NCBI GenBank assembly: GCA_016932955.1
Contig: JAFGBV010000196.1
Span: 1-7,658, forward strand
Source of the DNA: Anaerolineales bacterium
Lineage (GTDB): Bacteria; Chloroflexota; Anaerolineae; Anaerolineales; UBA4823
Direction of reading: 5' to 3'
DNA: 7,658 bases
Shown: piece after piece, positions 1 to 7,658 of the stretch
How the letters are laid out: each line of letters begins with the position of its first letter
How positions within the stretch are numbered: the stretch's first letter is position 1
The notes under the pieces: generated by a model
The model's input: the letters and a program-made list of their open reading frames with translations, nothing else
Databases searched by the model: none
What the model was told of the DNA's origin: nothing
Translations under genes and position numbers: made by a program

Positions 1-2
1 CT

Positions 3-296
3 ACAGGATATGCCCATCTGATCGGTGATGGTCCTCAGGGGGCTGACGTTCAGTTCCTCCCCTACCATGGTAGTTATGCTCCCTATAGCGTTATGGACCA
101 TTACCTATCGGTGAAGCGAATGTACTTGGAGTTACTGCCGTCGGCGGATATCTGCGAGTTACAGCTTATTGTCTATCCAGCGGGGAATGGCAATCAGTCC
201 GTATCCGGGCCGCGCGTTCCCAGAACGGTTCTGGGCCATCGTTGGCTTTTGTTGCGCTCCCTCAGAACGGTTCTGGTGTGTAGACAGTGTAGGTAG
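3..296 (+). CDS. Possible 3' end of an unrecognised plus-strand gene (5' end outside window)
   Basis: This frame is open from the left edge and stops at TAG 294-296. Its first part, up to about base 205, reads like ordinary protein with mixed hydrophobic and polar residues (for example QFLPYHGSYAP and CELQLIVYPAGNG). I recognise no family. From about base 219 the frame runs through two copies of a palindromic repeat, each giving an R-T-V-L peptide, and the stop lies inside an iteron. The last 25 or so residues are therefore probably not the original C-terminus. The ATG at 93 has no convincing ribosome site, so an upstream start is likelier. It converges on the primase gene, and the two share the terminator at 353-386. 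It could be the remnant of a gene whose end was replaced when the neighbouring element integrated, or a chance open frame. Confidence 0.35.
   Translation, partial: TGYAHLIGDGPQGADVQFLPYHGSYAPYSVMDHYLSVKRMYLELLPSADICELQLIVYPAGNGNQSVSGPRVPRTVLGHRWLLLRSLRTVLVCRQCR
220..234. repeat. Dispersed palindrome, copy 1 (left 19-bp direct repeat)
   Basis: CCAGAACGGTTCTGG has 7-bp arms that are exact reverse complements around one central base. Here the symmetry extends to 17 bp (219-235). With the following GGCCA it forms the 19-mer repeated at 3997-4015. It is one of five near-identical copies in non-coding or dubiously coding parts of the window. Confidence 0.85.
262..276. repeat. Dispersed palindrome, copy 2 (one mismatch)
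   Basis: TCAGAACGGTTCTGG differs from the other copies only at its first base and lies 27 bp after copy 1. The 13-bp core CAGAACGGTTCTG is still perfectly symmetrical around its central base. Two copies side by side, next to the iterons, make this end of the element resemble a compound protein-binding site. It could also be a simple local duplication. Confidence 0.8.
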
Positions 297-430
297 TGTA
301 GGCATCTATATACTCGTTGCGCATTGCGAAAACAGGTGTACTGAAATTAAAGAAAAACAGCAGCCTTATAAGGGGCTACTGTTTTTGAAAACTATATAGC
401 GGGTACCTACACTACCTACACTACTTACAC
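286..430. other. Iteron-flanked A+T-rich block, candidate replication origin of the element
   Basis: Two plus-oriented 9-mers (GTGTAGGTA at 287-295, GTGTAGGCA at 296-304) face three minus-oriented 9-mers (404-412 and 413-421 exact, 422-430 as GTGTAAGTA). The outcome is a 17-bp perfect inverted repeat, 286-302 against 406-422, with about 100 bp of A+T-rich sequence between. It lies immediately 3' of the primase-helicase gene, whose stop codon is inside the last iteron. Staphylococcal pathogenicity islands are known to have this plan: short iterons flanking an A+T-rich segment downstream of the Rep helicase gene. Function here is inferred from that likeness. The interval also contains a transcription terminator, which alone could explain much of its A+T content. 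Confidence 0.5.
353..386. terminator. Bidirectional Rho-independent terminator
   Basis: A 13-bp stem pairs AAAAACAGCAGCC (353-365) with GGCTACTGTTTTT (374-386), with a single C-A mismatch and an 8-nt loop. The run of A on one side and T on the other gives a U tract in both directions. It can end the primase transcript from the right and any transcript of the frame ending at 296 from the left. Confidence 0.8.
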
Positions 431-2758
431 TGATCCAGGGGCGACCAGCTTGATGCCGACATATACTGTTCCCTGATTGGCTCGCGCGGATTCGAGGTCA
501 AGTTTCTTCCACACTCGCCCAAGACGCGATTTGTTAAGGTATCGTAGCCCATTTGCTTCGCACCAGTCGCGATAAGCCTGAAACAGGAGTTCAGCAGAGA
601 TCCTCCCATTAGGATCGTCTACCAACCGCTCCTCGACAAAGGTGGCTTCAACCTGGGTTTCTCGCTGATACGCCTTTAGCTCAGCTTCAGCCAGTTCCGA
701 TTTGGTGAAACGGCCATTTTCCCTGAGCCGAGTTAACCCTTGCAGTGCCCAATTCAGGATACCAGGCAGTTCCTCGAAAAGGCGGTCTTTCAGATAAGTG
801 TCGCGCTGTTCTTCCGGAACGGTTCTGAAAAACGGGAACAGGATCAGGCGACGGAAAACCGCATCGCTGCGGTCCTCAATCTGTGGCAGTTGGTTCATGG
901 CCCACCAGACCTTAGCCTGTGGCTTTGCAGAGAAGGTGGGGGCATATATCTGCCGGAACAGCATCTCCTCCCCACTCACCAACTGCTTGAAAAGGTTATC
1001 GGTGAGGATAGTGTTACTGGCCGCCTCTGAGCACGTAATCACTCGCTTGCCAGGAATTGCAGCCAACTGGTACTGATTTCTGCTCAGTGTACTGAAATCC
1101 ACTATAGCATGAGCAGTTGCCAATAGGCGCTGGACAATAGATAGGATCGTGCTTTTGCCGCTGGCTGCCTCGCCATTTAGCAGAAAAGCCTTTTCCAGGC
1201 TGGTATCCGGGGTGAGGCTGTAACCCAACGCTTCTTGGAGTAAGTCAATCAACGAGGGATCTGTTTTGCCATCCTCATTAACCAGAACCTGGTCAAGAAA
1301 AGCCCGCCACTGGGGGCAATCAGCATCCGGATCATAGCTATAATCCAACTGCGTAGTGAAGTAGAGTTCGCGCTGATGAGGCTCAAGTTCCAGTGTTTCG
1401 AGGTTCAGCATGCCATTCGCCAGGTTGAGATACTGGTCCCCGGCATCAACAGCCTGATCGTCCACACGGACGTGGGCCTTGATGTAGTCTTCTACAGAGA
1501 CTTTGAGGCCTTTCGTAGGCCTTACGCCTTCCAATTTGCGGCTCTTGAGCAGATCATAAATCTCCTTATCCAAGCCTTTGTAGGGAGTCCAGACACCCTG
1601 ATCATAGGTATAGAAGGCTCCGTAAAAGTAGGCTAGATTGCCGTCCTTCTGGGCAATCAGGGTATCGCCGAACTCATCTACGGTTGGCATAAGTTTCTTT
1701 GCCTGCTCTCCGTTGTCCTTTCTTTTTCGCGTTTTAGCAGCAACAGGCCGATCCTCACGACTTGAGGATGGAATATAATCCCGCCAATCCAAGCCCAGTA
1801 ATTCGCCTACCTCTATTGCAAGCGCAAATTCGCGATCCCCGTGGCACTTGAAACAGTGCAGAATATGCTTATCTCGATGCCAGCCAGCACCTGGACGTTC
1901 ATCCTCATGCTCATGAGTACGCAAGGGGCAGCGAACCGGTTTGGAAAAGCCATTATCTCTATACCCCTGGACGCCAAGAGCCTGCTCAATCGCATCATAA
2001 AACTCCTGCGGCAGTTCTTTACTTTCTGCCGCCGAATGAGCAACCTCATCGAGTGTATCTGCGAGATCAGATTCAGCAGGATATGCCTCACAAGATGTGG
2101 TTGTTGCGGGTAAAGCCAGCAGCCAAGCACTGAATTCCTCACCCTCGTAAGCTTCCCAGGCTTTACCGATATCGGCTTTATCACCAAGCTCTTCTGGCAG
2201 CACATGCGTAACCAGGGTGATCTCAGAATCCGCCACGACGGCTGCCACCTTTTCGGCGTGCTTTGTCCCTTTCTCATCGAGATCAGGAGCGATATGCAGT
2301 GTTGTGACACCCCATGACTCCAGGGCATCAACAAAGTCTGATGGAAGGTTGGCTTCACCACGAGTCGTACATACGGCATTGTGAATGCCAGCTGAATGCA
2401 ACGCCCAGACATCCGGCTCACCATTGGCAAACCAAAGAATGCCGTCGTTCGCAGCAATGATTTCGACAATGGGCCGCTCACCAACCATGTACCAATCTGT
2501 GTCAGATGACTTTTTTCTTGGAAGCCATCGGTATTTGTTGGGGCCTTTGGTATCCGGGAATTTCTTGAAGCGTCGGCCAGCGGCCTGTGCTGTGTGGGGA
2601 TCGATCGCGGGGTACTCCCAACCGTTGCCTCGTCGATTCTGTTTCAGCTGAGCCAGTTGGATGGTTTCATCTGAGATGCGGCGATCATGTAGCAGCTGCT
2701 CCCAACGTGGAAGCGCCTGCGAAGATTGCTTAGAAGTAGGATGTATGTTATTATTCAT
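425..2758 (-). CDS. Phage/plasmid-type primase-helicase (TOPRIM, zinc finger, D5/P4-like SF3 helicase)
   Basis: This 777-residue protein probably primes and unwinds DNA at the element's own origin. Residues 1-100 resemble a reduced primase core (ISDETIQLAQL). A TOPRIM domain follows at about 105-190, with GEPD (E114) and the metal-binding pair D159/D161. A CHC2-like zinc site lies at C277, H282 or H284, C302 and C305. Residues 360-500 look like the D5 N-terminal region. The SF3 helicase has Walker A GEAASGKST (529-537), Walker B ending at E578, motif C at N622 and arginines R636/R637. About 700-765 resembles a C-terminal winged helix. TOPRIM before the zinc site reverses the DnaG order. The ATG has AAGGGAG 8 nt upstream. 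The gene is 84 bp downstream of the integrase, with no promoter seen between, so co-transcription is likely. The family call is firm; the origin partner at 286-430 is inferred. Confidence 0.92.
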   Translation of the reverse strand: MNNNIHPTSKQSSQALPRWEQLLHDRRISDETIQLAQLKQNRRGNGWEYPAIDPHTAQAAGRRFKKFPDTKGPNKYRWLPRKKSSDTDWYMVGERPIVEIIAANDGILWFANGEPDVWALHSAGIHNAVCTTRGEANLPSDFVDALESWGVTTLHIAPDLDEKGTKHAEKVAAVVADSEITLVTHVLPEELGDKADIGKAWEAYEGEEFSAWLLALPATTTSCEAYPAESDLADTLDEVAHSAAESKELPQEFYDAIEQALGVQGYRDNGFSKPVRCPLRTHEHEDERPGAGWHRDKHILHCFKCHGDREFALAIEVGELLGLDWRDYIPSSSREDRPVAAKTRKRKDNGEQAKKLMPTVDEFGDTLIAQKDGNLAYFYGAFYTYDQGVWTPYKGLDKEIYDLLKSRKLEGVRPTKGLKVSVEDYIKAHVRVDDQAVDAGDQYLNLANGMLNLETLELEPHQRELYFTTQLDYSYDPDADCPQWRAFLDQVLVNEDGKTDPSLIDLLQEALGYSLTPDTSLEKAFLLNGEAASGKSTILSIVQRLLATAHAIVDFSTLSRNQYQLAAIPGKRVITCSEAASNTILTDNLFKQLVSGEEMLFRQIYAPTFSAKPQAKVWWAMNQLPQIEDRSDAVFRRLILFPFFRTVPEEQRDTYLKDRLFEELPGILNWALQGLTRLRENGRFTKSELAEAELKAYQRETQVEATFVEERLVDDPNGRISAELLFQAYRDWCEANGLRYLNKSRLGRVWKKLDLESARANQGTVYVGIKLVAPGSV

Positions 2759-2806
2759 ATGTCGAATCTCCCTTACAGATCAGAGAAGGTCTATGGGTCA
2801 TTTGAT

Positions 2807-2840
2807 AGCGCCCGTTCATCCGCCAAGATTGCCGGGCGCT
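2807..2840. repeat. Hairpin between integrase and primase genes
   Basis: AGCGCCCG (2807-2814) and CGGGCGCT (2833-2840) form a perfect 8-bp stem with an 18-nt loop, beginning 2 nt after the integrase stop codon. On the minus strand no U tract follows, so it is not a standard terminator. It may protect the 3' end of the integrase message, attenuate read-through or bind a protein. In the plus direction a T-run occurs only about 10 nt later, within integrase coding sequence. Confidence 0.6.
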
Positions 2841-2842
2841 TC

Positions 2843-3877
2843 TTATTGTGCTTTTTTCCATTGCGTGTCCTCAATTCGTTGTAGAACCGTTCCGAATAAA
2901 TGATTCCATTCTTCGGTCACATCACGTTGTGAAACCGACGACGGTCTCACCCGACCCACGTAGTTCATGAGCGCCTCCCCAGTCTTGAGGCCCAGGTAGT
3001 CCTGGATATCTTCAAGGGGAACATTCTCCGCGAACAATCGCAATGCATACGCCCTTCGCAAGTCCATTGGCTTAATCTTGATCGGTGAAGCTCCCGGTTC
3101 AATGATCGGATAGCTTGCCAGGATTTTCTGGATCGACCTATGGGCGATCGGGTTGTCCCGGAGCTTCTCCGTTGTTGCCACAAACCCACGAAAGATGTAG
3201 CCCTCAGTGATCTCTGCCCTGCTGAGCCAGGCCTTCACAATTTTAAGAACCGCTTCTTGCATATTCCTGTAGGGAATCAAGCGTTCTTGACACCCTGGCT
3301 TGTCAGGGACATGCAGGCACAGCTCCCCTCGTTCCGACGTAAGCTCTAAATCTTCAACTTGTAGTTGGCACACCTCCTGCTCCCGAATTCCAGTCGCGAT
3401 CATCAAGCCAAAGATGGCGGTGTCACGCAGCCCCTTGAGGGTGTTGACGCCAGGCTTGAGTAACAAGTTATGTATATGCCGCTCCGGCACTGGTTGGTAG
3501 CCAGCGGATTGTGAGCGCTGCTCCCTTGTACGCTGTTCGGCATTTAGCAGCGTGTCTAACTTCTGTACCTGAAGCTCTAGCTCTTTATCAGACACGTTAC
3601 CCCCCTGCCCTTCCAGCAGTTGGCGTAGTTGAGCAGGGTCTTCAAGTAACTCACGATACCGGCCACGAACTGTTGCCAGATGGGCGCGGATGCTTGACGG
3701 CTTCAGCTTGCCTTCAGCAAGCAAACGGCGCTCGTAAGCCTCAAGGATAGAAGCTGCGTTCCAGGGATAACCTGTTTGCTCGCGCCACTCTACAAAGAAG
3801 CCGAGACGCTGCCGCCGGTCCTTCTGAGCATGTACCATCCCATCTGGGAATAAAATTGGATGTTCTCTTTTTTGCAT
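2843..3877 (-). CDS. Tyrosine recombinase / integrase (divergent active site)
   Basis: This 344-residue site-specific recombinase presumably integrates and excises the element. An N-terminal SAM-like core-binding domain covers roughly residues 20-95 and the catalytic domain about 130-320. Box I is TGIREQEV with R165, a beta-hairpin lysine is likely K193, box II is MDLRRAYALRL with R274, and the nucleophile is Y306 in MNYVGRV. The usual HxxR histidine is Met (residue 271) and the LGH histidine is Leu (297). The fold and the R-K-R-Y set are present but both histidines are missing. A TTG at 3934 would add 19 residues. I prefer ATG 3877 because GGAAG lies 9 nt upstream and the promoter at 3917-3945 would start transcription downstream of that TTG. 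The first gene of an apparent operon with the primase, it points away from the 19-bp repeat. Confidence 0.9.
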   Translation of the reverse strand: MQKREHPILFPDGMVHAQKDRRQRLGFFVEWREQTGYPWNAASILEAYERRLLAEGKLKPSSIRAHLATVRGRYRELLEDPAQLRQLLEGQGGNVSDKELELQVQKLDTLLNAEQRTREQRSQSAGYQPVPERHIHNLLLKPGVNTLKGLRDTAIFGLMIATGIREQEVCQLQVEDLELTSERGELCLHVPDKPGCQERLIPYRNMQEAVLKIVKAWLSRAEITEGYIFRGFVATTEKLRDNPIAHRSIQKILASYPIIEPGASPIKIKPMDLRRAYALRLFAENVPLEDIQDYLGLKTGEALMNYVGRVRPSSVSQRDVTEEWNHLFGTVLQRIEDTQWKKAQ

Positions 3878-3916
3878 AGTCGCTATCTTCCGGTTAGAGG
3901 CCCATCTGATGAGCGA

Positions 3917-3945
3917 AGGATAACACGCCCGCAACGACGAGTCAA
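3917..3945 (-). promoter_or_regulatory. Sigma70-type promoter of the int-primase operon
   Basis: Read on the minus strand, TTGACT (3940-3945) and TATCCT (3917-3922) are separated by exactly 17 bp. The -35 matches consensus at five of six positions and the -10 at four of six. Transcription would start near 3910, leaving a leader of roughly 33 nt before ATG 3877. The position excludes the TTG at 3934 as start. A dispersed palindrome lies about 50 bp upstream of the -35 and could act as an upstream binding site. Confidence 0.65.
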
Positions 3946-3996
3946 GTAGAGTTGTAATTTTTTTGCGTTTTGGGGGAGGATCTGTCTGCGAACGCT

Positions 3997-4011
3997 CCAG
4001 AACGGTTCTGG
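3997..4011. repeat. Dispersed palindrome, copy 3 (right 19-bp direct repeat)
   Basis: An exact CCAGAACGGTTCTGG followed by GGCCA, so that 3997-4015 is identical to 220-238. It lies between the integrase promoter and the rRNA methyltransferase gene. It is the best candidate for the element's right attachment site. Confidence 0.85.
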
Positions 4012-4016
4012 GCCAG

Positions 4017-4062
4017 GTGGTAAAACTACCACAATCTACCCCCTACCCTTTCGCGGGGTAGA
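4017..4062. repeat. Cluster of short inverted repeats before the methyltransferase gene
   Basis: GTGGTA (4017-4022) and TACCAC (4027-4032) form a 6-bp stem with an AAAC loop. TCTACCCC (4035-4042) and GGGGTAGA (4055-4062) form a second, 8-bp stem. A competing pairing, CTACCC (4043-4048) with GGGTAG (4056-4061), shares the right arm, so the two folds exclude each other. The last arm overlaps the -10-like hexamer of the next gene. These could be operators, or a leader structure if transcription starts upstream. Confidence 0.5.
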
Positions 4063-4064
4063 AT
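4059..4064 (+). promoter_or_regulatory. -10-like hexamer for a possible leaderless transcript
   Basis: TAGAAT matches the TATAAT consensus at five of six positions and ends 6 nt before the ATG at 4071, so a transcript starting there would be leaderless. No recognisable -35 is seen at the normal spacing. No Shine-Dalgarno sequence precedes the ATG, which agrees with leaderless translation but does not prove it. Confidence 0.3.
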
Positions 4065-4070
4065 ACCCTC

Positions 4071-5306
4071 ATGATCAACCTAACCGCCCTACCCCAGCCA
4101 GCCGATAAACGAATTGCCATCCGCGTCAAGCCAGCAGCAGAACGTGCTCTACATGATGGGCATCCCTGGATCTTCGAGGGTTCTATCCGCAGCCAGAGTC
4201 ATGCCGGACAACCTGGCGACCTGGCCGTCATCTTCGACGGCAACCGCCGCTTCCTGGCTGTGGGGCTGTATGACCCCCATTCCCCCATCCGCGTCAGAGT
4301 GCTCCAATATGGACAGGCTGCAACCATCAACCGCGATTGGTTTGGGGCACGCCTGCAGGCAGCCGCAGACATCCGCCAGCCGCTTCAAACTGTACGGACT
4401 ACCGGCTACCGCCTGGTCTATGGCGAGAATGACGGCCTGCCCGGGCTGGTGATCGATCGTTACGCATCCACGCTGGTGCTCAAGCTCTACACCGCTGCAT
4501 GGCTTCCTCATCTGGTAGATGTGCTGGAAGCGCTACCCACTATCCAAGCTCATGATCGATTGGTGCTGCGCCTCAGCCGGCATGTACAGCCGCTTGCTGC
4601 GCCTTATGGCCTGGAGGATGGGCAGACGCTGCTGGGTAGTCCTCCGGATGCCCCGGTGGTCTTTCAGGAGAACGGGCTGCGCTTTGCCGCCGATGTTGTT
4701 CAGGGCCACAAGACCGGGTTCTTCTTCGACCAGCGCGAAAACCGCGCCCGGGTGCGTGACCTGGCGCAGGGCCGGCGCGTGCTGGATGTATTCGCCTATA
4801 GTGGAGGATTTTCGGTTTATGCCGCTGCCGGTGGCGCACGAACAGTCACCAGCCTGGATGCCAGTGAACCCGCGCTACAAGTCGCCGCTGCCAACTTTGC
4901 CCTGAATGACGGCAATCCCCATGTCAGCGCAGCTCGTCACGTCACGCTGGTAGAGGATGCCTTTGAGGGCCTTGCGCGCCTGCAGGCCAGTGGACAGCGC
5001 TATGACATGGTGATTGTAGACCCACCGTCATTTGCCAAGAGTGCGGCTGAAGTGAACCGTGCCCTGGCCGCCTACAAGCGCCTGACCCGATTGGCGCTGG
5101 CTGTGCTGACGCCCAGGACCGGCGTGCTGGTGATGGCTTCATGTTCCAGCCAGGTCACGCCGACGGCATTCTTCGAAACGGTGGAGCAGACCGCCTCAGC
5201 AGCCGGCCGCAGGCTCACACAGATCAAGCACACCGGCCACGCCCTGGACCACCCAGTCAGGTTCCCCGAAGGCGAATACCTCAAGTGCCTGTTCGCGGTG
5301 GGATAG
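4071..5306 (+). CDS. rlmI: Class I SAM-dependent rRNA methyltransferase, RlmI-like (PUA domain)
   Basis: A 411-residue cytoplasmic enzyme of the RlmI/RlmK-type family. E. coli RlmI makes m5C1962 in 23S rRNA and is about 396 residues long, so this is full length. Residues 14-85 form the PUA RNA-binding domain (HPWIFEGSI at 31-39). The middle domain carries the family signature YGENDGLPGLVIDRY (117-131). The Rossmann methyltransferase has TGFFFDQREN (215-224), SAM motif I VLDVFAYSGGFSVY (237-250), the acidic SLDAS (261-265), VIVDPPSFAK (314-323) and MASCSS (355-360). The domain call is firm; the exact target base is inferred from the family. It is a solo gene, with G+C-rich codons unlike the neighbouring element. 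No ribosome site is visible before the ATG. It ends 3 nt before a dispersed palindrome. Confidence 0.92.
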   Translation: MINLTALPQPADKRIAIRVKPAAERALHDGHPWIFEGSIRSQSHAGQPGDLAVIFDGNRRFLAVGLYDPHSPIRVRVLQYGQAATINRDWFGARLQAAADIRQPLQTVRTTGYRLVYGENDGLPGLVIDRYASTLVLKLYTAAWLPHLVDVLEALPTIQAHDRLVLRLSRHVQPLAAPYGLEDGQTLLGSPPDAPVVFQENGLRFAADVVQGHKTGFFFDQRENRARVRDLAQGRRVLDVFAYSGGFSVYAAAGGARTVTSLDASEPALQVAAANFALNDGNPHVSAARHVTLVEDAFEGLARLQASGQRYDMVIVDPPSFAKSAAEVNRALAAYKRLTRLALAVLTPRTGVLVMASCSSQVTPTAFFETVEQTASAAGRRLTQIKHTGHALDHPVRFPEGEYLKCLFAVG

Positions 5307-5309
5307 CTC

Positions 5310-5324
5310 CCAGAACGGTTCTGG
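5310..5324. repeat. Dispersed palindrome, copy 4
   Basis: An exact CCAGAACGGTTCTGG, 3 nt after the methyltransferase stop codon and about 70 bp before the promoter of the next gene. The following bases (AACGA) differ from those of copies 1 and 3. This shows that the palindrome is a unit in its own right and not only part of the putative att site. Confidence 0.85.
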
Positions 5325-5358
5325 AACGATAACAAATACGACAGCTACCACAGAGAAA

Positions 5359-5390
5359 AACCACTGATTGCGGAGACGCGTTCAGTGGTT
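5359..5390. terminator. GNRA-capped hairpin, possible terminator
   Basis: AACCACTGA (5359-5367) and TCAGTGGTT (5382-5390) form a perfect 9-bp stem. Inside it, after a U-U mismatch and a U-G pair, GCG/CGC closes a GAGA tetraloop. The A-run at 5356-5360 gives a proper U tract only when read on the minus strand, whereas the plus strand continues GTGCG. It may end the methyltransferase transcript weakly and block antisense transcription from the right. Confidence 0.55.
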
Positions 5391-5394
5391 GTGC

Positions 5395-5423
5395 GTGACT
5401 CGCCGCCTTATATTTACTATAAT
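5395..5423 (+). promoter_or_regulatory. Sigma70-type promoter of the secreted repeat protein gene
   Basis: GTGACT (5395-5400, four of six consensus positions) and a perfect TATAAT (5418-5423) are spaced by 17 bp. Transcription would start near 5430, giving a leader of about 33 nt that includes the ribosome site GGAGG at 5450-5454. Confidence 0.75.
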
Positions 5424-5462
5424 GGTCTTATTACCGAATAAGCAGAATTGGAGGTTGGCATT

Positions 5463-5948
5463 ATGCGGTATCGCACATCAGGTCTCATTCTCCTGGTTGT
5501 CGTCTTACTCCTGTCCGTCGTTGTTCCCGTGGCGGCCCAGGACCGCACGCGGGTGCAGCGGGGACGCGCCATGCTCACCGAACTGTCGGGCACGGTGCAC
5601 CGCTTCGATCCCAGGAGCGGGCGTGGCGTGGCCGCGATCCACTTCGCAGGTGTGGTAAGCAGCGGCCCCCAGGCTGGCCAGCCCATCACAGGAACGGGCA
5701 TCCTGGCCTATACCGGCGACATCGCGGATGGCACGGACATCTTTATGTTGGAGCGCGGCTGGATGCAGGTGCAGGTCACAGTGGGCGAAGGGGAGGCAGC
5801 CGTGACCGTCGAGGGCCGTGCCACACTGGGATCAGTGGCGCTGGGTTATTCGGGTGAGATCGGCGATGGCACGGACATCTTCATGGCGGAAGGCGAGACC
5901 GCGGAGATGCGCTACTCGGGTGAGGTCGCCGATGGCACGGATATCTGA
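5463..5948 (+). CDS. Small secreted protein with DGTDI repeats, unknown function
   Basis: 161 residues. The ATG at 5463 has GGAGG 8 nt upstream, which makes it preferable to the in-frame TTG at 5448. Residues 1-25 are a typical signal peptide: MRYR, then a hydrophobic run LILLVVVLLLSVVVPV, with likely cleavage after VAA. No lipobox cysteine is present, so the product is probably secreted or on the cell surface. The mature part is rich in Gly, Val and Thr, as in a beta-strand protein. It has three copies of Y-[ST]-G-[DE]-[IV]-x-D-G-T-D-I: residues 83-95 and 129-141, both ending IFM, and 151-161. The last copy is cut by the stop right after DGTDI. Restoring one base there would give about eight more codons before TAA. 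It has its own promoter and stands alone. I recognise no family and assign no function. Confidence 0.8.
   Translation: MRYRTSGLILLVVVLLLSVVVPVAAQDRTRVQRGRAMLTELSGTVHRFDPRSGRGVAAIHFAGVVSSGPQAGQPITGTGILAYTGDIADGTDIFMLERGWMQVQVTVGEGEAAVTVEGRATLGSVALGYSGEIGDGTDIFMAEGETAEMRYSGEVADGTDI
5709..5945 (+). repeat. Three in-gene repeats encoding the YxGxxxDGTDI motif
   Basis: The units lie at 5709-5747, 5847-5885 and 5913-5945 and share GATGGCACGGACATCTT, or GATGGCACGGATATCT in the last. The DNA is conserved as well as the protein, which suggests recent duplication or gene conversion. Spacing is uneven: 46 residues between the first two starts and 22 between the last two. Confidence 0.75.
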
Positions 5949-5951
5949 TGC

Positions 5952-6064
5952 GCAACAACCACGCGAGATAAGGCGAGCAAGCTGATAGGAAACCAGCGTG
6001 CCAGATTGGGACAGGCTATTGCCTTGCTCGCCAGAAGGTGTCCGGCAGGGAGCACGCGGGTTGC
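5952..6064. repeat. Nested inverted repeat in the gene-free gap, possible structured RNA or terminator
   Basis: GGCGAGCAAG (5972-5981) is the exact reverse complement of CTTGCTCGCC (6023-6032), 41 nt apart. Outside it, CGCG (5962-5965) faces CGCG (6055-6058) and GCAAC (5952-5956) faces GTTGC (6060-6064) in the correct nested order. No U tract follows on either strand, so it is not a standard terminator, although it lies just after the repeat-protein gene. A folded 3' UTR, a small RNA or the remains of a miniature inverted-repeat element are all possible. I match it to no known RNA family. Confidence 0.45.
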
Positions 6065-6108
6065 TTCTAAGCCAGGGGATTTTAACGCGGTGTTTTGCCG
6101 GCCACGTT

Positions 6109-6123
6109 CCAGAACGGTTCTGG
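6109..6123. repeat. Dispersed palindrome, copy 5
   Basis: An exact CCAGAACGGTTCTGG followed by GGAAT, located 10 bp beyond the U tract of the SDR gene terminator. Like copy 4 it lies between genes and close to the 3' end of one. Confidence 0.85.
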
Positions 6124-6133
6124 GGAATACAAC

Positions 6134-6164
6134 AAAAAAGCGCCCCTTCGATGTGAAGGAGCGC
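6134..6164 (-). terminator. Rho-independent terminator of the SDR gene
   Basis: On the minus strand, GCGC and CCTTC pair with GAAGG and GCGC across a single A-C mismatch, with a 5-nt loop (6150-6154). Six U follow (6134-6139). It begins 9 nt after the stop codon of the SDR gene. Confidence 0.85.
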
Positions 6165-6173
6165 CTGTCGAAT

Positions 6174-7172
6174 TCAGCCTAACTTGCCGTGTTCTATCAT
6201 CCAGGTTAACGCCTCAGAGATGGCTTCAAGCGAGCTGTAGCGCGGGTTGTAGTTCAGCAAGCGGCGCGCCTTTTCGATGCTCCCGTTCGGGCTGTGGGCA
6301 ATGTGATCCCAGGTTGCCAGCGCCTCGCCTTCCGAGACTGTGGTGCGCCACTGCTCCCACCCCATGAACTCCAGCCGCGCTGGTTGCCCAAACCAGCTTG
6401 CCACCGCCTCCGCGTAACCGCGCAGCGTCAGTGCAGCCGGCGAGACGACATGAAAGCTCTCTCCGATACACTGGCTCCAGTTGGCCAGCGCCTGCATGAA
6501 GGCTTGCGCCACGTCGTCACCATGAACGTGGTGCACCGTTTCCAGGCCGAAGTTTGGCAAGGTCAGGGTTTGTCCAGTGGCCAGCTTGCGGAAAACCTCG
6601 GGGTTGAAGTTTCCCGCCGGGTTGACGGGCCAATGGCCAACACCAACCACATGGCCGGGATGGAGGACCGTAGCTGGAAAACCGTTACGCTGCGCTTCGG
6701 TTAGCAGGTAGGCTTCAATGGCCGCTTTCTGCACCCCGTAATCGCTCACCAGGTAGGGATCAACCTTTGAGGGATCTTCGACTGTATAGCGGTGGAACGG
6801 ACGACGCGGTTGCTCCTCAGTAGCAGGAACCTCAGTATTGTAGCCATGAACCCACATCGTGCCGCAGTGCATGAAGAGCCGTACCTCGCCCCGCAAGGCA
6901 TCGACGATCTGCTGTGCGCTCTCCGGAGTGTAACAGATCAAATCGATGACTACGTCACCTTGCAGCGCCCTCACCTGCTCTCCAAGAGTCCCTTTGGCAT
7001 CTTCCTGTTCACGATCCAGATGAATCGCCTGCACGCGATTCCAAGCCCCGTTCGGAATATAAGGTTTCGTTTGCCCCCGTGAGATATTGATTACCTCATG
7101 CCCTGCATTAACGAGGCGTGGGATCAAATACGTACCGATGTGACCACTTCCACCCAGCACTATGACGCGCAT
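6174..7172 (-). CDS. NAD(P)-dependent epimerase/dehydratase family protein (extended SDR)
   Basis: A 332-residue cytoplasmic protein of full family length. It starts MRVIVLGGSGHIGTYL, with the nucleotide-binding glycine motif GGSGHIG at residues 7-13 after the first beta strand. The active-site tyrosine and lysine are Y145 and K149 (YGVQK), with T105 in MHCGTMWVHG as the likely third residue. The substrate half contains VHHVHGDDVAQAF (213-225), the family's usual VHVxDvA-type motif in altered form. The substrate cannot be read from sequence; such proteins act on nucleotide sugars, flavonoid- or steroid-like ketones, or serve in assembly. ATG 7172 has AAAGGA 8 nt upstream. Neighbours give no pathway: the upstream gene is an unrelated coiled-coil membrane protein and the next gene downstream is convergent. 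A candidate promoter lies at 7238-7266. Confidence 0.88.
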   Translation of the reverse strand: MRVIVLGGSGHIGTYLIPRLVNAGHEVINISRGQTKPYIPNGAWNRVQAIHLDREQEDAKGTLGEQVRALQGDVVIDLICYTPESAQQIVDALRGEVRLFMHCGTMWVHGYNTEVPATEEQPRRPFHRYTVEDPSKVDPYLVSDYGVQKAAIEAYLLTEAQRNGFPATVLHPGHVVGVGHWPVNPAGNFNPEVFRKLATGQTLTLPNFGLETVHHVHGDDVAQAFMQALANWSQCIGESFHVVSPAALTLRGYAEAVASWFGQPARLEFMGWEQWRTTVSEGEALATWDHIAHSPNGSIEKARRLLNYNPRYSSLEAISEALTWMIEHGKLG

Positions 7173-7237
7173 GTTGCCAATCCTTTATCATTTGTACGGA
7201 GCATTACACACAAAACGAGGCTGTGGCGTGGAATGAC

Positions 7238-7266
7238 GCTATATATGCAGGACGCCCTGCGATCAA
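7238..7266 (-). promoter_or_regulatory. Candidate promoter of the SDR gene
   Basis: On the minus strand, TTGATC (7261-7266) and TATAGC (7238-7243) are 17 bp apart, each matching consensus at four of six positions. The spacer holds GCAGG-ACGC-CCTGC (7247-7260), a small inverted repeat that could be an operator or chance. The leader would be about 60 nt. The evidence is modest. Confidence 0.35.
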
Positions 7267-7282
7267 ACGCTTAGCCCCTGCA

Positions 7283-7658
7283 TCACCCTACCCCACCGGT
7301 GGCAATCAAGACGGCAATCACGGCAGCAGCGAGGACAAGCGTGGCGAAAACCGCGATGGCGATGATCTTGAGCCAGTAGTCAGTGGGCTTGCGCTCCGCC
7401 TCCACCACATGCAGCTGGCCGCGTAACTCGCCTAACTGCTCCTTGGTTTCGGTTAGCTGGGTTTGCAGTTGCTTGCGCTCCCCGCGTTCTTCCTCAAGCG
7501 CTTCTTCCAGGAGGTCTACCTGCTTTTCAAGCGTGATGATCTGAAGATTGAGCTTTTCCGCCTGCTTGGAGATCGCGATACTGGCCGCTTCAGCGGGGAC
7601 CATCGGCACTTCATTGTCATGCCCTGGTTTGGGCGGAATATCGGGTAATCCCCGCCAG
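7283..7658 (-). CDS. Coiled-coil protein with a C-terminal membrane anchor (5' end outside window)
   Basis: The stop is TGA at 7283-7285. The frame remains open to the right edge with no ATG before it, so the start is probably outside the window. A GTG at 7609 or ATG at 7603 would give about 106-108 residues, but neither has a clear ribosome site. The visible N-terminal part is proline-rich (GLPDIPPKPG). Next comes a long heptad-like charged helix of about 60 residues, rich in E, K, Q and L (from KQAEKLNLQ through LEEALEEERGERKQL to LHVVEAERK). A single membrane segment follows after YWLK (IIAIAVFATLVLAAAVIAVLIA), ending with GGVG. This suggests a tail-anchored protein with its coiled coil in the cytoplasm. 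I recognise no specific family. It is a separate unit upstream of the SDR gene, about 110 bp away. Confidence 0.75.
   Translation of the reverse strand, partial: WRGLPDIPPKPGHDNEVPMVPAEAASIAISKQAEKLNLQIITLEKQVDLLEEALEEERGERKQLQTQLTETKEQLGELRGQLHVVEAERKPTDYWLKIIAIAVFATLVLAAAVIAVLIATGGVG

Follow-up and report, generated by a model that had tools for sequence, protein, structure and literature searches.

A tyrosine recombinase, a primase-helicase and a candidate iteron origin in an Anaerolineales contig

Genes and features of the window

The window is the whole stretch of DNA analysed, 7,658 bp of an Anaerolineales genome (contig JAFGBV010000196.1, positions 1 to 7,658), apparently the entire contig. 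Two perfect copies of a direct 19-bp repeat, CCAGAACGGTTCTGGGCCA, lie at 220-238 and 3997-4015, and only two genes, both on the minus strand, are recognised between them: a tyrosine recombinase (2843-3877 from its ATG), identified by PF00589, database relatives and a structure model, and a primase-helicase (425-2758), identified by Pfam, TIGR01613 and a protein alignment (A1). Two short iteron arrays (404-431 and 278-304) adjoin the end of the primase gene. The first-pass annotation had placed an integrase, a primase-helicase and iterons between the 19-bp repeats, and Pfam and TRF recovered all of them.

The Pfam and PHROGs scans covered the integrase, the primase and an open reading frame (ORF) on the plus strand that is open at the left contig edge (3-296); any further ORF of 60 aa or more in 220-4015 overlaps one of these three. 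Among the scanned ORFs of that interval, no gene for packaging, capsid remodelling, helper response or an AlpA/Stl-type regulator was recognised, nor a third gene of the alpA or xis kind, and no tRNA or Rfam RNA was found in the window. The contig starts 219 bp to the left of the left repeat, inside the left ORF, which continues through that repeat. On the right flank lies a presumed chromosomal gene for an RlmI-like 23S rRNA methyltransferase with a PUA domain (4071-5306, plus strand).

The primase-helicase and its candidate origin

The primase-helicase is a protein of 777 aa with a TOPRIM-like part (about 113-190), a D5_N domain (383-492; E = 1.3e-16) and an SF3 helicase/DUF5906 domain (527-637; E = 3.1e-12). 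It scores 218.9 bits against TIGR01613 (cut-off 108.7), and with D5_N and DUF5906 also over cut-off it has the SF3 helicase with D5_N/P4 C-terminal domain that characterises SaPI/P4-type replicons. Although Pfam Toprim_2 falls just below its cut-off (20.5 against 22.1 bits), a TOPRIM-like assignment is supported at the sequence level by residues E114, D159 and D161, invariant in the five aligned sequences of A1, and by two relatives (P0009, P0013) that exceed the cut-off. Also invariant in A1 are G534, K535 and S536 and, within a Cys/His cluster at 277-305 resembling a CHC2 zinc finger, C277, H282, C302 and C305; this cluster has no Pfam match in the window's primase, and a Pox_D5 match at 706-747 is sub-threshold (19.0 against 21.4 bits). 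The TOPRIM-like part precedes the CHC2-like cluster, the reverse of the order in a DnaG-type protein (L099). The nearest relative is 48% identical, and relatives of the window's proteins and alignments in viral contigs are few and distant. The sole sequence relative of solved structure at E ≤ 0.001 is 7ola/7om0, annotated 'DNA primase', which we take to be the SaPI5 primase-helicase. A structure model of the window's protein was too poor to be used (pLDDT 52.5).

TRF reports 9-bp arrays at 278-304 and 404-431. The primase-proximal array (404-431) comprises three units that read TGTAA-TGTAG-TGTAG in the direction of the primase, the stop codon of which (TAA, 425-427) sits in the first unit. The distal array (278-304), of three TGTAG units, is inverted and mirrors the first at a distance of about 100 bp. 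A hairpin at 353-386, a possible terminator, falls in the spacer between them (305-403), the likely melting region of an origin; a z-score of -4.86 was obtained for 270-440. G+C content is 45% in 220-438 compared with 52-53% in the integrase and primase genes. By layout, the arrays occupy the position of an iteron origin directly 3' of a helicase gene. None of the four exact iteron strings was matched in the literature searched.

A similar iteron layout recurs beside some other primases. Six loci (L001-L006) were fetched by primase similarity alone, and converging 3+3 arrays start from the primase stop in two of them (L001 and L002), which are alike and not independent; no comparable array accompanies the related primases of L003-L006 and L136, and the layout comparison covers primases outside the window's own subfamily, to which its closest relatives (P0002-P0005) belong. 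A strict definition (3+2 units or more) returned 11 of 155 sequences at eight distinct places, with none in a backward-read control. A primase or SF3 helicase adjoins five of the eight (the window, L001, L002, L089 and L134), although five (L089, L134, L151, L153 and L154) had themselves been fetched by the iteron pattern. An exact 3+3 pattern searched in 398 genomes of one phylum occurred at four places, all in a single genome (G002, itself among the 398), with none in a reversed control; the pattern was tuned to L001/L002, such that the window's own arrays, with wider spacing and one TGTAA, would not match it, and no primase lies within 1.5 kb of two of the four arrays (L151, L153).

Of 7 viral-contig loci that have inverted arrays, 4 lie next to a primase or helicase ORF, compared with 2 of the 39 scanned loci that have none (by Pfam alone 3 of 7 and 2 of 39, L132 being recognised by PHROGs only). 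The two groups were treated unequally. At the seven inverted-array loci the ORFs were chosen by hand, and some loci had more than one scanned. Of the 41 loci lacking inverted arrays, 35 went through a joint, Pfam-only scan of a single nearby ORF per locus, which was the largest on the list for 33 of them and the second largest for L113 and L131. The joint scan of these 35 gave no primase or SF3 helicase. Both positives came from four loci scanned first as promising-looking (L093, L119, L122, L129), and the last two (L098, L108) had no ORF to scan. At the three remaining inverted-array loci (L092, L094, L126), no primase was among the ORFs scanned.

A close parallel is the replicon of the SaPIs, the origins of which, in the accessible part of the source, are built from iterons, follow immediately 3' of the helicase gene and serve as the recognition target of the Rep C-terminal domain (PMC7581432). 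The window shares with it a D5-type replicative helicase and an iteron array directly 3' of the helicase gene, and differs in that its primase part is TOPRIM-like where those of SaPIbov1 and SaPI5 are described there as AEP-type (PMC7581432), its iterons are 9-bp TGTAG units, and no regulator, packaging or cargo gene was recognised. With the alpha-type primase/helicase of phage P4 (TIGR01613) it has in common a fused primase-helicase with a P4-family C-terminal domain, and differs in the TOPRIM-like part ahead of the CHC2-like cluster. The PICMI of Vibrionaceae, minimal satellites with a core of int, alpA and primase, are likewise small elements built on an integrase and a DUF5906-domain primase (PMC10803314, as far as its text was available); the window has two genes only, with no AlpA recognised and no neighbouring fis, and DUF3987, part of the PICMI primase model in that text, is absent from its Pfam matches to E = 10. 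A literature search for satellites in Chloroflexota turned up a single paper, which by its abstract concerns something else. By analogy, then, the layout looks like known phage-satellite copying machinery.

The recurrence at other loci and the accessible SaPI description (PMC7581432) lend support to the first-pass reading of a Rep-type helicase with an adjacent origin, and its view that an integrase, such a helicase and an adjacent origin form the basic plan shared by satellites and other integrative elements holds up as well. The combination of a D5-type primase-helicase gene with converging 9-bp TGTAG arrays at its stop codon offers a testable origin signature, which could help in finding small replicating elements without packaging genes.

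Nature and extent of the element

The locus is best explained as an integrative mobile element, whole or partial, that sits in a bacterial chromosome and carries a self-contained satellite-type replicon, a reading to which we assign a probability of about 75%. The tyrosine recombinase would help to cut the element out as a circle, and the C-terminal domain of the primase-helicase would bind both inverted TGTAG arrays, which start from the stop codon of its own gene. The intervening stretch of about 100 bp would then melt and helicase rings load, after which the fused primase would start synthesis and the circle would be copied by host polymerases, perhaps with the use of a helper.

The replication module is better supported than boundaries at the 19-bp repeats. 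The first 15 bases of the repeat form a palindrome, CCAGAACGGTTCTGG, with four exact copies in the contig (starting at 220, 3997, 5310 and 6109), two of which fall outside the proposed element, at 5310-5324 just past the stop of the rRNA methyltransferase gene (5306) and at 6109-6123 in a gap between convergent genes. Near-copies occur at 262-276 (one mismatch), within the proposed element, and at 814 (two mismatches). The six sites amount to 12 strand matches, compared with a mean of 0.29 in shuffled sequences, none of 200 of which reached 12. The core GAAC[GC]GTTC occurs seven times, twice within genes (817 in the primase, 2884 in the integrase). Given four copies, at least one of the six possible pairs shared at least four further bases in 9.2% of simulations. 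The ends of the element are not established, since the 19-bp repeats are two copies of a palindrome scattered through the contig. As att sites they constitute weak evidence and were downgraded after the palindrome was counted; the first-pass claim that they bound the element was not borne out. An alternative 11-bp direct match (12 and 3900) has no better support. The 15-mer matched no published motif in the literature searched; HIP1 is a different sequence in the source text available, and a search on palindromic repeats in Chloroflexi gave nothing on point among the papers listed. In viral contigs the 15-mer is present in 76 stretches, one copy each, taken for chance occurrences without a computed expectation. 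Perfect direct repeats around an integrase may be dispersed palindromes and not att sites, which calls for caution.

The element may run past the left contig edge, because the left ORF has a GC3 (0.569) like that of the primase (0.53) and integrase (0.565) and unlike the 0.66-0.77 of the right-side genes. The integrase and primase could be the terminal module of a prophage or integrative element that is larger and extends leftwards beyond the contig, which is the strongest of the competing accounts at somewhat worse than even odds. A codon score of +3.26 also sides with the element genes, although it lies within the ranges of both gene sets in 72-codon pieces (-5.9 to +10.4 for the element, -7.6 to +4.6 for the right flank), so that the composition test leans towards the element without being decisive. 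In a larger viral contig of 36.7 kb (L136), a related integrase precedes a D5-type helicase encoded on the same strand, which is the order of the window. Set against this, no significant phage relative of the left ORF was found: tblastn against phages to E = 10 gave a best E of 0.4, there was no match in viral contigs and none in Pfam to E = 10, the best PDB match had E = 0.72, and no protein-database match was found among proteins 0.55-1.75 times the length of the fragment. The two genes do not look like a fixed pair in these comparisons, since one integrase relative (P0021, in 2 contigs, the longest 44,260) is 89% identical while the best primase relative reaches only 48%, and that longest-contig figure recurs in none of 18 other primase matches.

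We consider it rather improbable that the element is complete at 3777 bp, with the 19-bp repeats as attL and attR and perhaps any dispersed palindrome of the host as attB. When the two ends (1-424 and 3860-4075) are compared, no exact direct repeat is longer than the 19-bp pair, which lies just outside the integrase and origin. Integrases commonly adjoin att sites. Joining the flanks across the element yields an ORF that stops at 4061, shortly ahead of the following gene, although this is not diagnostic because the ORF as found is already open to 296. The PICMI core of int, alpA and primase provides a precedent in the accessible text (PMC10803314), yet no alpA- or xis-like third gene was recognised among the scanned ORFs. 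With palindrome copies inside and outside and a chance of about 0.09 for the pair, the complete element proposed in the first pass is unproven.

The integrase and its altered active site

The integrase (344 aa from ATG; PF00589, E = 7.8e-15) is predicted to have the catalytic-domain fold of a canonical tyrosine recombinase, in a model with pLDDT 91.8 and pTM 0.82. The best PDB match of the model is Cre (E = 3.1e-08), with XerA and XerH also among the matches; the Cre/Tre matches listed have TM-scores of 0.42-0.59 and an rmsd of at least 7 Å. The canonical R-K-H-R-H/W-Y active site is not present. R165, R274 and Y306 are kept, whereas M271 and L297 occupy columns in which most relatives carry His, and P194 stands where most have Lys, with a Lys at 193. 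The protein thus shares the modelled fold and the Arg-Arg-Tyr residues of XerC/D-like phage integrases (PF00589) and differs in the replacement of two His and the usual Lys. Absence of residues normally needed for catalysis counts against the favoured mobile-element reading.

In a comparison of 66 integrase entries, the window's own included, six sequences, again with the window's own, have lost both catalytic His (to Met and Leu/Val) as well as the Lys in its usual place, but retain Arg-Arg-Tyr. In a tree of the same 60 entries as the Lys count (P0033, P0071, P0080, P0081, P0084 (short) and P0085 (distant or outside range) being left out), the six diverged proteins stand on one side of a branch with support 100/99; the bootstrap had not settled (0.982), and a warning of long branches meeting included one of the six (P0044). 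PHDLRR, in which the first His is retained, was found in all 14 viral-contig loci of one integrase search and other motifs in two further loci, with no additional member of the His-less group among these 16. Partial changes of the pentad are known, as in IntDes, in which the first His is replaced by Tyr (PMC8138268, in the part available); the window's set of changes was not found in the literature examined.

The loss of both His and the usual Lys is what a decaying relic might display, with a catalysis-dead integrase beside a still readable replicon, an account we hold to be unlikely: both reading frames are open, and decay is not expected to preserve changes common to six diverged proteins, Arg-Arg-Tyr in all of them or a relative 89% identical. 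That the clade works with Arg, Arg and Tyr only, the His pair being absent and the Lys shifted or replaced, and that the element targets any copy of a host-wide palindrome and hence many sites, is a long shot. The group nevertheless offers a natural way to ask how far the tyrosine-recombinase active site can be reduced.

The primase-helicase and its putative origin

The window appears to be an entire contig of 7658 bases, as the protein database gives this length for the contig bearing its primase and integrase. It carries a genuine mobile-element module whose kind is already known. In its 777-aa primase-helicase (425-2758, minus strand), a profile search placed D5_N and DUF5906 (SF3 helicase) above their cut-offs, and TIGR01613, the P4-family C-terminal model, scored 218.9 bits against a cut-off of 108.7. 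A solved sequence relative at E<=0.001 (7ola) was found only for the helicase half (382-746). The Walker A residues, the TOPRIM acidic residues E114, D159 and D161, and a CHC2-like Cys/His cluster (277-305) are invariant in all five aligned primases. This cluster has no Pfam match in the window protein even at E=10; among its database relatives, the CHC2 match is weak in three (P0003, P0004 and P0012) and exceeds the cut-off in P0009. Because the zinc match follows the TOPRIM match in all four relatives, the N-terminal order of the window primase seems to be TOPRIM and then the zinc cluster. Such an arrangement, with TOPRIM preceding the CHC2-like cluster in both the window protein (425-2758) and P0009 (47-240), would reverse the DnaG-type order, whereas the primase of locus L099 has the order CHC2-core-TOPRIM.

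Two arrays, each of three 9-bp units, face each other downstream of the gene, one distal (278-304) and the other inverted relative to it and primase-proximal (404-431). Read in the direction of the primase, the unit nearest the gene is TGTAA, which contains the primase stop codon. The origin of a SaPI consists of iterons, is found immediately downstream of the helicase gene and is recognised by the C-terminal domain of the helicase (PMC7581432). The window layout matches this rule and supports a satellite-type origin; because it does so, we commit, by analogy, to a SaPI/P4-like initiation mechanism for the replicon, in which the primase-helicase would bind the iterons and replication would proceed from the iteron region.

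TGTAG arrays at other loci

Six loci (L001-L006) were chosen solely by primase similarity. Two of these, L001 and L002, resemble each other by eye and have primases 31-32% identical to that of the window; in both, the primase stop codon again falls at the first unit, and approximately 50 bp are flanked by 3+3 converging units. No comparable iteron cluster was found in L003-L006 or in the viral contig L136. A strict converging array (3+2 or more) occurred in 11 of the 155 sequences examined, representing eight distinct places (the window, L001, L002, L089, L134, L151, L153, and L154), five of which (L089, L134, L151, L153, and L154) had been selected by the iteron pattern itself. The same search in a backward-read control returned zero, and arrays of opposite polarity are present in L099 and L132.

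L001 and L002 (1255-4399) each present an element that carries a primase, a putative origin and an integrase. Although catalogued as Flavobacteriaceae, L001 looks by eye very like the Planktomarina locus L002, which could mean contamination of one bin or a recent move of the element. Among 398 genomes of the phylum of the Planktomarina assembly G002, itself included, G002 alone contained the exact 3+3 pattern, which was fitted to L001 and L002 and would not match the window's own arrays; it occurs there four times. One occurrence belongs to the L002 element, which has a primase and an integrase, and another (L154) adjoins an ORF resembling an integrase by eye. The remaining two (L151 and L153, each with converging 3+3 TGTAG units at 1501-1598) have no primase within 1.5 kb, and may be orphan origins that lost elements left behind or candidate origins served in trans.

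A two-unit string was present in 48 viral-contig stretches, seven of which contain inverted arrays. Four of these seven have a primase/helicase ORF next to them, versus two of 39 scanned loci without such arrays, the groups having been scanned unequally; the four positives were identified by Pfam (L089, L099, and L134) or PHROGs (L132). None of the ORFs scanned beside the inverted TGTAG arrays of L092, L094, and L126 was a primase; the link between the motif and D5 primases may therefore not be strict. A sliding-clamp-like ORF lies near the array in L092 and a terminase ORF near that in L126.

An integrase group without catalytic histidines

The window integrase (2843-3877, minus strand) is unusual. 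Of 66 database entries, one of them from the window itself, three carry an organism name (P0027, P0033, and P0040); all three come from Anaerolineaceae or Chloroflexota/Chloroflexi and share approximately 37-42% identity with it, which makes a Chloroflexota host likely as far as a mobile gene at this identity can indicate. All 66 entries have the box I Arg, and 65 have the box II Arg, the other showing a gap there. The first catalytic His column holds His in 59, Met in six and one gap; the second holds His in 58, two gaps, and, in the six Met sequences, Leu (five) or Val (one). These six, namely the window protein, P0021, P0022, P0023, P0035, and P0044, retain Arg-Arg-Tyr, the Tyr being kept in 6/6, and none has Lys in the Lys column, where they instead hold Arg (three), Pro (two) or Gly (one); of the other 54 rows used, 53 have Lys there. 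In P0020 and P0021, a Lys sits one residue before the usual column and could substitute for it. A 60-row tree, rooted only at its midpoint, with an unsettled bootstrap and a long-branch warning, places all six on one side of a branch with support of 100/99.

Cre and Xer recombinases rank among the best matches of a confident structure model of the integrase (pLDDT 91.8), and in a sequence alignment with 4a8e, His stands opposite M271 and L297. Partial changes of the tyrosine-recombinase pentad are known; the first His is replaced by Tyr in IntDes and is less strongly conserved in IntBPP-1 (PMC8138268). Replacement of both His and the Lys together had no match in those parts of the literature searched for it. 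Even diverged members preserve Arg-Arg-Tyr, which suggests that the protein is probably functional.

Element ends and the dispersed palindrome

The first-pass annotation had bounded a 3777-bp element by perfect 19-bp direct repeats (220-238 and 3997-4015). The repeats are indeed present, but the boundaries drawn at them do not stand as evidence, since copies of the core palindrome occur both inside and outside the proposed element. The 15 leading bases of the repeat form a palindrome with six window sites at up to three mismatches: exact at 220, 3997, 5310, and 6109, with one mismatch at 262 and with two at 814. Counting both strands gives 12 matches; shuffles averaged 0.29, and 0/200 of them reached 12. 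The core GAAC[GC]GTTC occurs seven times, and palindrome or core sites (220, 262, 814, 2884, 3997, 5310, and 6109) are spaced at approximately one per kb, mostly between genes, yet with one inside each element gene; the exact copies at 5310 and 6109 belong to the right flank, 1.3 and 2.1 kb past the supposed right end. In a simulation of four exact copies in random flanks, the chance that at least one of the six pairs matched over at least four further bases was 9.2%. The pair fits att sites but, because the core is dispersed and such pairing arises by chance at this rate, is hardly evidence for them; the palindrome is most likely a HIP-like dispersed motif of the host.

The left 219 bases belong to an open ORF (3-296, plus strand) for which protein, domain, phage, viral-contig, and PDB comparisons gave no significant relatives. 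Its GC3 is 0.569, compared with 0.53 for the primase, 0.565 for the integrase and 0.66-0.77 for the right-flank genes; its codon score (+3.26) tilts towards the element, yet falls within the ranges of both element and right-flank genes. Joining the flanks at the palindrome yields an ORF that ends at 4061, a result without diagnostic value. In the larger viral contig L136, the gene of a related integrase that has both His is followed by that of a D5 helicase on the same strand. An element complete at 3.8 kb and a longer one are both possible. P0021 is 89% identical to the window integrase and has no comparably close primase partner among the 18 other primase matches; therefore, the two genes probably swap independently of each other.

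To the right, the window encodes an RlmI-like rRNA methyltransferase, a short repeat protein and an SDR/epimerase, which are presumably chromosomal. The small repeat protein (5463-5948), with zero Pfam matches even at E=10, has a signal-like start and three repeat copies reading about YSGEIGDGTDIF.
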